From Quadrisphaera sp. DSM 44207 (GTDB lineage: Bacteria > Actinomycetota > Actinomycetes > Actinomycetales > Quadrisphaeraceae), in the NCBI RefSeq assembly GCF_900101335.1, contig NZ_FNKA01000002.1:1-64000 (forward strand): a DNA stretch of 64,000 bases, written 5' to 3'. This document shows, one piece after another, positions 15,280 through 18,648 of this stretch; position 1 is the first letter of the stretch; each line of letters starts with the position of its first letter. The position numbers were made by a program, and so were the translations under genes. The notes under the pieces were generated by a model. That model worked only from the letters and a program-made list of their open reading frames with translations, was not told the DNA's origin and made no database searches.

Positions 15280-15309
15280 TTGACAGGACCTCGCACCGCC
15301 TGCCAGGTT
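15280..15309 (+). promoter_or_regulatory. metNIQ promoter
   Basis: TTGACA (15280-15285), an 18-nt spacer and CAGGTT (15304-15309) form the best -35/-10 pair I saw in the window. Transcription would start near 15316-15319, exactly at the first base of the SAM-IV riboswitch, which supports both calls. Confidence 0.8.
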
Positions 15310-15318
15310 CCGTCCTGC

Positions 15319-15435
15319 GGTCATGAGCGCCAGCGCGAAGCCCCGGCTCGCTGGCCGGCAACCCTCCTCGTCGTGGGGTGCCCCGGGTGATGACCAGACC
15401 AGCGGCCGACCGGCCCTGGTAAGGACGACCCAGGA
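15319..15435 (+). ncRNA. SAM-IV-class S-adenosylmethionine riboswitch
   Basis: The RNA begins GGTCATGAGCGCCAGCG and contains AAGCCCCGGCTCGCTGG, CCGGCAACCCTCC and GTGGGGTGCCCCGGGTGATG, ending P1 with ATGACC. These match, nearly base for base, the actinobacterial SAM-IV aptamer as I remember it from mycobacteria. A further hairpin (ACCAG...CTGGT, 15398-15420) follows as expected for the 3' side of this class; the 3' limit is approximate. It lies in the leader of metN-metI-metQ, so high S-adenosylmethionine should reduce methionine uptake. Confidence 0.92.
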
Positions 15436-15789
15436 GAGCTCCGTGCGCTGCTCGCCGTGCCCCGCCCCGCGCCACCTGCCGCGCCGCCCCGCCCGCCGCG
15501 ACGACCCGTGTCGCCGGGGGCCGCGCACCGCCGTCCACCGCTGACCGGCCCCGGCGCCGCGGCGCGCTGAGACCACCGGCGCACCGGCGCTCCTGCGCGG
15601 CCCCGCCCCGCACCCCCGAGCCGGACGGGCGCACCCGACCTGGACCGCGCCCGGCGCAGCCCGCCCTCGCCCGGCCCACCCCTGCCCGGCCCACCCCTGC
15701 CCGGCCCACCCCTGCCCTCGCGCAGCCGGCCCCGCCCCGCGGGCGCCGCGCCGCGCCCGCCGACCCGTCCACCCACCCCCGGAGACCCC
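15436..15789 (+). other. Long C-rich, G-poor leader between riboswitch and metN
   Basis: No credible gene lies in these 354 bases. The RNA strand is strikingly rich in C with runs such as CCCCGCCCCG and few long G runs, as in Rho utilisation sites. It contains a 15-nt tandem repeat (15671-15715). I see no simple intrinsic terminator next to the aptamer. I infer that ligand-controlled exposure of this leader to Rho is a possible mode of control. Confidence 0.45.
15671..15715 (+). repeat. 15-nt tandem repeat, 3 perfect copies, in the metN leader
   Basis: The unit CCGGCCCACCCCTGC is repeated three times without change, 75 nt before the metN start. Confidence 0.9.
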
Positions 15790-16851
15790 GTGATCGAGCT
15801 CGACCAGCTGACCAAGGCCTACGGCCACGGACCGGGGCGCACCGTCGTCCTGGACCACCTGGACCTGACCGTGCGCACCGGCGAGATCGTCGCCATCGTC
15901 GGCCCCAGCGGCGCCGGCAAGAGCACCCTCGCGCAGTGCGTGAACCTCCTCGAGCGGCCCACCTCCGGGTCGGTCGTCGTGGGCGGGGTGGACCTGTCCT
16001 CCCTCGGCGAGCGCCGCCTGCGCGCCGCGCGCCGCCAGATCGGCACGATCTTCCAGTCCGACGGCCTGCAGTCGCGCCGCACCGCGGAGGAGAACGTGGC
16101 GCTGCCGCTGCGGTACCTGGGCGTCACGCCCGCGGAGCGGCGCCGGCGCGTGGCCGAGCTGCTCGACCGCGTCGGCCTGGCCGACCGCGCCCGCCACTAC
16201 CCGCACCAGCTCTCCGGAGGGCAGCGCCAGCGCGTCGGCATCGCGCGCGCCCTCGCCCTGCGCCCCTCGGTGCTGCTCGCCGACGAGGCCACCTCCGGCC
16301 TCGACCCCGAGGCCACGGCGTCCGTCGTGGCCCTGGTCCGGCAGCTGCGCGACGAGCTGGGCCTGTCCATCCTCTTCATCACGCACGAGATGGACGTCGT
16401 CGTGGACGTGGCCGACCGCGCCGCCCGCCTCGAGGCCGGGCGGATCGGGGAGTCCGGGCGCGTCGTGGACCTGCTGCGCGACCCGTCCTCGGCCCTCGGC
16501 GCGGCCCTGCTCGGACGCCGCGAGGACGCCGGGCCGGCGCGCGCGGGGGTGTGGTCGGTGACCTACCGGTCCCCGGACGTGCCGGGGGACTGGCTCGTGC
16601 GCGCCTCCCTCGCCCTCAACGCCGACGTCGCCCTCCTCGACGCCTCCGTGGGCGCGGTGGGCGGCCAGACCGTCGGGCGCGCCACGGTGCGCATCGACGA
16701 GCGGACCGACCCGGTGCGCGTCGAGGGCGTGCTGCGCGCCCTCGGCCTCGCCCCGGGCCGCGGCGCCGGCAGCGCTCCCGCCGCCGCGCAGCCCCCCGCC
16801 CCCGCGCCGTCCGCCCCGGACGCCGCCGCGCGGCTGGAGCCGGTGGCGTGA
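15790..16851 (+). CDS. metN: Methionine ABC transporter ATP-binding protein MetN
   Basis: This is the ATPase of the methionine importer. The 353-residue protein has Walker A VGPSGAGKST, the Q-loop IFQSDGL, the signature LSGGQRQR, Walker B SVLLADEAT and the switch His in FITHEMD. Residues about 245-320 form the C-terminal NIL (ACT-like) domain found in MetN proteins, which binds methionine and inhibits transport when the cell is replete. GTG 15790 has GGAG 6 nt upstream. It shares a GTGA overlap with metI. The SAM-IV riboswitch upstream confirms the methionine assignment. Confidence 0.95.
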   Translation: MIELDQLTKAYGHGPGRTVVLDHLDLTVRTGEIVAIVGPSGAGKSTLAQCVNLLERPTSGSVVVGGVDLSSLGERRLRAARRQIGTIFQSDGLQSRRTAEENVALPLRYLGVTPAERRRRVAELLDRVGLADRARHYPHQLSGGQRQRVGIARALALRPSVLLADEATSGLDPEATASVVALVRQLRDELGLSILFITHEMDVVVDVADRAARLEAGRIGESGRVVDLLRDPSSALGAALLGRREDAGPARAGVWSVTYRSPDVPGDWLVRASLALNADVALLDASVGAVGGQTVGRATVRIDERTDPVRVEGVLRALGLAPGRGAGSAPAAAQPPAPAPSAPDAAARLEPVA

Positions 16852-17636
16852 GCGCCGTTCCGGCGACCCCCGCCCTGCCCGTGCTCACCGCCTCCGGCGA
16901 CACGCCGCTCGCACAGATCCCCGCCCTCGTCGTCCCGGCCCTCGGCGACACGCTGCTCATGGTCGGCGTCGTCATGGTCCTCGTCGTCGCGCTCGGCGTC
17001 CCCCTCGGCGTCCTCGTGCACGACCTGGCGCCCGGCGGGCTGTTCGAGAACCGGCCCCTGCACACCGCCCTCGGCTGGGTCGTCAGCGTCGGGCGCTCCC
17101 TGCCGTTCCTCATCCTCATGGCGGCCCTGGTGCCGGTGACCCGCTTCATCACCGGCACCAACATCGGCATCGCCGCCGCCGTGGTGCCCATGACGCTGGC
17201 GGGCACCGCCTTCTTCGCCCGCATCGTCGAGAACGCCCTGCGCAGCGTCCCGCCGGAGCTCGTGCGCGTCGCCCGGGCCTCCGGCGCCTCCCCGCTGCAG
17301 ATCATCACCACGGTGCAGCTGAGCGAGGCGGCGCCGCTGGTCGTCGGCGGCCTGACGATCAACACCATCGCGATGATCGAGTACTCGGCCATCGCCGGGA
17401 CGATCGGCGCCGGCGGCATCGGCTACGTGGCCGTCACCTACGGCTACCAGCGCTTCGACCACGCCGTGATGATCACGACCATCGCGATCCTCGTGGGCGC
17501 CGTCGCCCTCGTGCAGCTGGTCGGCGACCGGCTCGTGCGCCGGCTCACCCCGCACCTGCGCACCGCCCGTCGCGGCCGCGCGGGCGCCGCTGCGCGCCCC
17601 GACCCCGCTCCGGCCGCGCCGCAGGCCGCCGCCTGA
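16848..17636 (+). CDS. metI: Methionine ABC transporter permease MetI
   Basis: The inner-membrane permease of 262 residues has about five helices and the conserved cytoplasmic coupling-helix region ENALRSVPPELVRVARASGA, followed by IGAGGIGYVAVTYGYQRFD, typical of MetI. The start overlaps the metN stop (GTGA), so translation is probably coupled. The N-terminus (about 25 residues before the first helix) and an Ala/Pro-rich tail ([20 protein letters not shown]) are longer than in well-known MetI. metQ follows after a C-rich gap of 91 nt. Confidence 0.95.
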   Translation: MSAVPATPALPVLTASGDTPLAQIPALVVPALGDTLLMVGVVMVLVVALGVPLGVLVHDLAPGGLFENRPLHTALGWVVSVGRSLPFLILMAALVPVTRFITGTNIGIAAAVVPMTLAGTAFFARIVENALRSVPPELVRVARASGASPLQIITTVQLSEAAPLVVGGLTINTIAMIEYSAIAGTIGAGGIGYVAVTYGYQRFDHAVMITTIAILVGAVALVQLVGDRLVRRLTPHLRTARRGRAGAAARPDPAPAAPQAAA

Positions 17637-17727
17637 GCCCCCGCCCCACCCGGCCCCCGCTCGACCTCGCCCGACCCCGCCCGACCCGACCCGCGCCGTC
17701 CGCGCACCCGATCCCGAGGAGACCGCC

Positions 17728-18648
17728 ATGACCACCGAGCCCACCACCCGCCCCGCCGCGCCCGTCGACGAGACCCACGGCTTCACGCTGCGCCGTGCTC
17801 GCCGCTGGCCCTGGGTCGCCGGCGCCGGCCTCGCCGCCGCGGGCGTCGCCGCGGCCGTCGTCGTCCCGCGCCTGACCGCCGACCCCGTGGCCAACGAGGT
17901 GCCCGGCGCGACCCTGTACGTCGCCACCGCCGAGGGCAACGCCCGCGAGCAGGCGCTCGTGGAGTTCGTCGCCGAGGAGGTCGCGCCGCGCTACGGCATC
18001 GAGGTCGCGTTCAAGGGCCTGGCCGACTCCAACACCATCAACCGCGCCGTCAGCGAGGGCGAGGTCGCGGCCACCGTCTACCAGCACGAGCTGTGGCTCT
18101 CCCAGGTGCTCGAGGCCAACCCCGACTTCGAGGAGACCGCCGCCACGCCGGTCTTCCGGTGGGGCTTCGGCCTGTGGTCGGACCGGTGGGGCAGCGTCGA
18201 GGAGATCCCGGACGGCGCGACCATCTCCCTCTACTCCGACCCCGCCAACGAGGCGCAGGGCCTGTGGGTGCTCGAGCGCGCCGACCTGATCACCCTCGAC
18301 CCGGCGGTCGACGAGTGGCGCGCCACGGTCGACGACGTCGCGGAGAACCCCAAGGGCCTGCAGTTCACGCTCCTGGACTTCGGGGCGCAGTCCCGCGCGC
18401 TGCCCGACCTCGACGCCGCCGTCGGCTACACCGAGTACTACCTGGCCGCGAAGGTCCCGCTGGAGAAGCAGATCTTCGCCCCGCCGGCCCCGGACGAGTT
18501 CGCCGGGCAGCTGACGGTCGGCACCGAGTGGCTCGACGAGCCGAACATCGTCGACCTGGTCGAGGCGTTCCAGGACCCGGCGGTGCAGGAGTACCTGGCC
18601 ACCGACCCGGAGGTGCAGGGCGTGCTGCTGCCCCTCGACGCCCGGTAG
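17728..18648 (+). CDS. metQ: Methionine-binding protein MetQ (NlpA family), helix-anchored
   Basis: This is the extracytoplasmic binding protein of the importer. The 306 residues carry the NlpA-family fold with LYVATAEGNAREQALVEF, a VAFKGLADSNTINRAV segment, ATVYQHELWL and YTEYYLAAKVPLEKQ. Most MetQ proteins of Gram-positives are lipoproteins, but this one has no cysteine in its N-terminus. A basic RRARRWPW and a single helix (AGAGLAAAGVAAAVVV, about 31-47) should instead anchor it. ATG 17728 has GAGGAG upstream. The 91-nt gap behind metI is again C-rich. It is the last gene of the operon. Confidence 0.93.
   Translation: MTTEPTTRPAAPVDETHGFTLRRARRWPWVAGAGLAAAGVAAAVVVPRLTADPVANEVPGATLYVATAEGNAREQALVEFVAEEVAPRYGIEVAFKGLADSNTINRAVSEGEVAATVYQHELWLSQVLEANPDFEETAATPVFRWGFGLWSDRWGSVEEIPDGATISLYSDPANEAQGLWVLERADLITLDPAVDEWRATVDDVAENPKGLQFTLLDFGAQSRALPDLDAAVGYTEYYLAAKVPLEKQIFAPPAPDEFAGQLTVGTEWLDEPNIVDLVEAFQDPAVQEYLATDPEVQGVLLPLDAR

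Follow-up and report, generated by a model that had tools for sequence, protein, structure and literature searches.

A SAM-IV riboswitch followed by a cysteine-codon upstream reading frame and a C-rich spacer in the metNIQ leader of Quadrisphaera sp. DSM 44207

The metNIQ operon, its promoter and its aptamer

The metNIQ genes of Quadrisphaera sp. DSM 44207 lie on contig NZ_FNKA01000002.1, of which a stretch of 64,000 nt was analyzed (the window; coordinates refer to it and to its + strand). They comprise metN (15790–16851, +), which encodes the ATPase (ABC_tran, PF00005), metI (16848–17636, +), which encodes the permease (BPD_transp_1, PF00528), and metQ (17728–18648, +), which encodes an NlpA-type substrate-binding lipoprotein (Lipoprotein_9, PF03180). 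A preliminary description of this DNA had called the gap between metI and metQ C-rich, and it is, even more so than the spacer before metN (17637–17727; C-G +0.363); gaps of comparable composition are present in relatives from group g90 (L220, L226), while in groups g4 and g17 metI apparently extends as far as metQ.

This methionine-importer operon, in a high-GC actinomycete, opens with a genuine SAM-IV riboswitch, for which SAM binding and switching are predicted. The aptamer had been described as near-canonical and a covariance search proposed as the check; the search bore this out, RF00634 (Rfam) being matched over its full length (model positions 1–116) at 15319–15431 (+) with 94 bits (gathering score, 38; E-value, 8.8e-16). 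This is the one match to any Rfam family that reached the gathering score in the window. The promoter (15280–15309, +) is as previously claimed, with TTGACA (15280–15285) as the −35 element, an 18-nt spacer, and CAGGTT (15304–15309) as the −10 element. The pair was not detected by a generic sigma-70 scan; comparison supports its position, as the same spacing recurs in 13 of 13 orthologous metNIQ leaders, where TTGAC lies 36–39 nt 5′ of the aptamer and a hexamer of the form [TC]ANNNT 17–18 nt further. In a SAM-IV leader of C. glutamicum, the transcription start mapped by RNA-seq lies 2 nt 5′ of the Rfam start (PMC3890552). Given this placement and the conservation of the promoter pair, a predicted transcription start at or beside the first aptamer base is credible.

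A short reading frame directly after the aptamer

The preliminary description overlooked an upstream open reading frame (uORF; 15443–15544, +), which starts with GTG at 15443, has 33 codons and encodes MRCSPCPAPRHLPRRPARRDDPCRRGPRTAVHR*. It is preceded by a Shine-Dalgarno (SD) sequence, AGGAG, directly after the aptamer; the aptamer tail reads AAGGACGAC-CC-AGGAG-AGCTCC-GTG, and part of these bases fall within the Rfam match. Genome contigs were scanned for MetI, which gave 20 loci, mostly outside the Actinobacteria; orthologs of about 72–80% identity are encoded in a sister genus (g4), in g17 and g90, and in Actinotalea solisilvae. Each ortholog leader examined holds a SAM-IV aptamer and then, at one position, an SD, a GTG and a short ORF, and in all 14 metNIQ leaders of the window's type, from at least four genera, SD and Cys-codon uORF are found at the same spot. 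The peptides are MRTHALTSDACRWRRA* and variants in g4; MTKACRRSR*, MSKDCRRSR*, MSKACPRSR*, MPKACRRSR* and MSHQTCRR* in g17; and MRMCCCRH* and MRMCSCLDHTA* in g90 and Actinotalea; one metNIQ leader uORF ends in ...DACRWRRA*. The differences among the g17 uORFs include synonymous ones at third positions (CGC/CGA, TCG/TCC). The window uORF begins with MRCSPC, which resembles the MRMCSC and MRMCCC of its closest orthologs, and is much longer than the uORFs of these relatives; it matched no NCBIfam model, including NF042934 and NF042936. More distantly, a metN of group g3 lies about 70 nt from its aptamer and has no uORF, which amounts to direct control. A conserved, SD-led short ORF with Cys codons in front of a sulfur operon is the arrangement of a Cys leader-peptide attenuator, and expression may respond to cysteine.

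An alternative frame of 73 aa, opened by an AUG within the aptamer itself (15323) and in phase with the GTG uORF, was set aside because the same frame runs into a stop within the aptamer in the g17 relatives. Within the g4 leaders, the uORF holds an inverted repeat (CCAGCGAC/GTCGCTGG), and in L032–L036 the stretches GTCACTGTGNGTGAC and GGGCGATGCCCCCTGCCC are conserved about 40–100 nt before metN. Close MetI orthologs are patchily distributed, being found in 5 of 11 g17 genomes and, within the family of G262, in 3 of 150; leader and metNIQ operon may therefore move together by horizontal transfer.

SAM-IV leaders in related genomes

To place the leader among others, 125 distinct SAM-IV loci were sampled from the family, the order and the class, related genomes included. 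The gene starts no more than 112 nt after the aptamer core in 74 of the 125 and at least 140 nt after it in 49. An SD-led uORF that begins 40–100 nt after the core is present in 42 of these 49 long leaders, and one with Cys in 34, counts which, since related genomes are included, do not represent independent events; dinucleotide-preserving shuffles of the leaders gave a mean of 1.2 uORFs (maximum 4) and of 0.5 Cys uORFs (maximum 3). In the direct loci, the gene itself starts where the long leaders have the uORF. Cys accounts for 11% of the in-frame uORF codons of 22 representatives, compared with 2.2% of triplets in the RNA downstream; internal ATG triplets number 12 in frame versus 0 and 1 in the other two frames. 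Measured against those two frames, the Cys excess is less marked, though still clear (Fisher p 1e-5, a value that treats related sequences as independent). Because Cys and internal ATG exceed what is found out of frame or in the following RNA, the uORFs can be regarded as enriched in codons for the sulfur amino acids.

Downstream of some SAM-IV leaders are genes for sulfhydrylases beginning NDGWSFETRQIHAG, which we take to be metY-like, with the uORFs MTCRMCR*, MTCRMRR* and MTSRRCR*; downstream of others are, for example, further ABC importer genes, with MRCRHAR*. Some of the uORFs match NCBIfam NF042934 (RHVDLLRTASAACR). The genome of the window has three SAM-IV copies: that of the metNIQ leader; L001 (G000:C2:782455-782571, −), which precedes a metY-like gene and is followed by the uORF MTSRRCR*; and L003 (G000:C2:645710-645829), a case of direct control of its own gene. 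In f37 genomes (loci L149, L152, L157) the uORF after the aptamer is MSKRMR*, with Met and Arg and no Cys, and the codon sensed by the uORF may therefore differ between lineages. Pairs of SAM-IV aptamers that lie on opposite strands, separated by about 100 nt and apparently serving divergent genes, occur at G007:C23:40395-40729, G008:C11:49524-49839 and G439:C16:1956-2291.

The C-rich spacer

From the end of the aptamer to metN the distance is 358 nt (15432–15789), which agrees with the roughly 350 nt of C-rich, G-poor RNA reported before. The part after the uORF (15545–15789, +; C 0.58, G 0.30, T 0.04) is a candidate Rho-loading region; its C-G of +0.282 is the highest when set beside 209 upstream regions from 464 kb of this genome (mean −0.001, sd 0.085), a background that is approximate, as the home-made gene finder covered 62–68% of the sequence and left some genes uncalled. 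With backgrounds of the same approximate kind, a g17 leader ranks first against 95 regions of its own genome and a g90 leader second against 80. All 13 metN spacers have more C than G, while their length (80–245 nt) and sequence differ among genera and no common structure is apparent. Likewise, C exceeds G in 22 of 22 spacers of other uORF-type SAM-IV loci (mean +0.225, versus +0.016 for 57 direct loci, in which the stretch used for comparison is short). The composition suited to Rho loading that the preliminary description pointed out thus gains comparative support from the extreme excess of C over G in spacers of three genera. The 15-mer it had called triplicated (CCCTGCCCGGCCCAC) is a real tandem repeat of 3.5 copies with 97% match (15664–15717, +; TRF). 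At the same place, the g17 relative L064 has a C-rich tandem repeat of its own, CTGGACCCCCTG, unrelated and in about four copies.

The absence of a simple terminator near the aptamer was likewise upheld: no intrinsic terminator, that is, a GC hairpin with a U-tract, was found in the window leader by a terminator scan, and none of the 13 leaders has a T-run of four or more in the stretch from uORF to metN. An excess of C over G is something like a necessary condition for Rho, not a sufficient one. The genome encodes Rho, and with C>G far beyond the genome background Rho-dependent termination is a plausible prediction for this leader; a composition kept without shared sequence fits a Rho-loading region, without proving termination.

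Expression platform and mode of control

In keeping with membership in the SAM-IV family, L3 can form PK2 with the 3′ tail, UCGUC pairing with GACGA (15424–15428) in the window; all 13 metN leaders have CGUC/GACG, a length that permuted L3/tail pairs likewise reach (4 bp in 85%), and typical SAM-IV members have CCGCG/CGCGG. The UCGUC strand is part of a P3/L3 segment, CUCCUCGUC (15364–15372, +), whose CUCCU is complementary to the SD of the uORF (15432–15436); PK2 3′ strand and SD (together 15424–15436, +) are conserved in position in all orthologous leaders, and PK2 ends 3–9 nt before the SD in the metN leaders. In several leaders the pairing of L3 can be extended into the SD, by CUCCU/AGGAG in the window, CCUCCU/AGGAGG in L040 and L060, CCUGGUUCGUC/GACGAACCAGG in L062, and CUCCUUC/GAAGGAG in L063; in g4 and in two g17 leaders this extension is weak. 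Because L3 can pair onward into the SD in several leaders, the SAM-IV platform is suggested to be a translational OFF switch directed at the uORF, in which SAM would mask the SD. The earlier proposal of Rho control in place of a classic expression platform is probably wrong, since a PK2 tail abutting the SD is a translational platform, aimed at the uORF at 15443; Rho, if involved, would act after this step. What stands of the earlier interpretation is the SAM-IV aptamer, the missing intrinsic terminator and the Rho-type composition; what falls is the supposed absence of a platform.

We consider it somewhat more likely than not that the SAM-IV aptamer acts as a translational OFF platform on the uORF and that its state is relayed to metNIQ by Rho-dependent termination. 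When SAM is low, PK2 would be loose and AGGAG at 15432 free, and a ribosome would initiate at the GTG at 15443; present on the uORF, or stalled at its Cys codons when cysteine is short, this ribosome would keep Rho off, and the polymerase would reach metN. When SAM is high, PK2 and its extension would mask the SD, the uORF would not be translated, and Rho would load on the unprotected C-rich, G-poor RNA and stop transcription before metN. Stalling through uncharged Cys-tRNA might be a required second input or might only modulate the response. The uORFs of 8–9 codons are too short to cover a spacer of 80–245 nt alone, and protection would therefore need stalling or ribosome-polymerase coupling. 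Translational reinitiation at metN is unlikely, as the uORF stop lies 80–245 nt upstream of it. More broadly, and more tentatively, a two-input sulfur switch, widespread among Actinomycetes, can be envisaged, which we would put somewhat below an even chance: SAM-IV would gate a uORF with Cys or Met codons, the uORF would sense charged Cys- or Met-tRNA, and Rho would read out the result, so that sulfur genes would be expressed only under a joint shortage of SAM and the amino acid concerned.

Other explanations share part of this evidence. That SAM binding itself uncovers or conceals a Rho site and the uORF plays no role, as in the preliminary description, would agree with the C>G spacer and the lack of a terminator; we regard it as quite improbable, as it leaves unexplained the SD and uORF conserved exactly where the gene starts in direct SAM-IV loci, and no conserved alternative structure that pairs the aptamer with the spacer was found. 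Rho could also be dispensable if the uORF ribosome altered a structure masking the metN start or shielded the mRNA from decay. The leaders are highly structured, and translation attenuation of this kind has been suggested for mycobacterial Cys uORFs (PMC13236596); still, in partition folding the metN SD was not consistently masked (unpaired probability 0.27–0.65), and spacers of 80–245 nt have no structure common to the genera, and we think such control unlikely.

A hairpin terminator without a U-tract, governed by uORF translation as in classical attenuation, might be read from the GC-rich hairpins located downstream of the uORF in some leaders, such as GGCGCACC-ACCC-GGTGCGCC in L040. These hairpins are not conserved across genera and neither a terminator-like site nor a T-run of four or more is found, which leaves this explanation little probability. 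Finally, the spacer might be a functionless product of GC drift and repeat slippage, or contain a promoter for metN, with a riboswitch of little consequence; the lineage-specific 15-mer and the variable spacer length would suit this, but drift would not be expected to yield a conserved uORF position, an enrichment in Cys and a C>G bias across several genera, and we hold it to be very improbable. A translational platform on the uORF with Rho as its readout remains the reading we prefer.

Implications and comparison with known systems

If this reading is correct, about two fifths of the sampled SAM-IV leaders (49 of 125) would act not directly on the annotated gene but mostly on a Cys/Met leader peptide, and SAM-IV would be the sensing part of a device that unites a riboswitch with a leader-peptide attenuator. 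A Rho-type spacer would stand in for the intrinsic terminator in the long SAM-IV leaders, which would account for long leaders left blank in annotation, and the theme of riboswitch, uORF and Rho would reach from mycobacteria to the sulfur metabolism of actinomycetes.

The window's aptamer is like other members of RF00634 in its full match and its sulfur-gene context; it differs from the 74 of 125 sampled loci that act directly on a gene in that the first start codon after the aptamer is that of a uORF with Cys codons, which lies 245 nt upstream of the gene. Mycobacterial polycysteine uORFs are, reportedly, cysteine-responsive attenuators (Canestrari, 2020, cited in PMC13236596). These uORFs (NF042936, NF042934) resemble the present one in being short leader ORFs that contain Cys codons and precede sulfur genes, and several SAM-IV leaders have NF042934-type peptides; they are, in contrast, leaderless and have no riboswitch in front, and the window uORF falls outside both models. 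For actinobacterial cys leaders lacking hairpins, Rho was proposed in a survey from 2005 (PMC1262725). The metL peptide of S. lividans is encoded by a Cys/Met/Arg-rich uORF (...ARCMCRRMCAF*) before metNIQ without a clear Rho-independent terminator; unlike here, it is reported to be leaderless, and SAM-IV is placed at another gene, not at metNIQ (PMC8079986). A search of the open-access literature found no paper that describes SAM-IV together with a uORF or leader peptide. By analogy, the nearest working model is the pe20 M-box of M. tuberculosis, a riboswitch whose translational platform controls a uORF, with Rho-dependent termination (PMC12810186). Both have a riboswitch whose platform is translational and directed at a uORF, in a leader that lacks an intrinsic terminator, with Rho termination predicted for the window; the M-box differs in ligand and aptamer, and its uORF, which is not Cys-rich, shows conservation of the encoded protein. 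Riboswitch/uORF/Rho systems and polycysteine uORFs are thus already known, and SAM-IV with a Cys uORF and a Rho-type spacer would combine features of the two.
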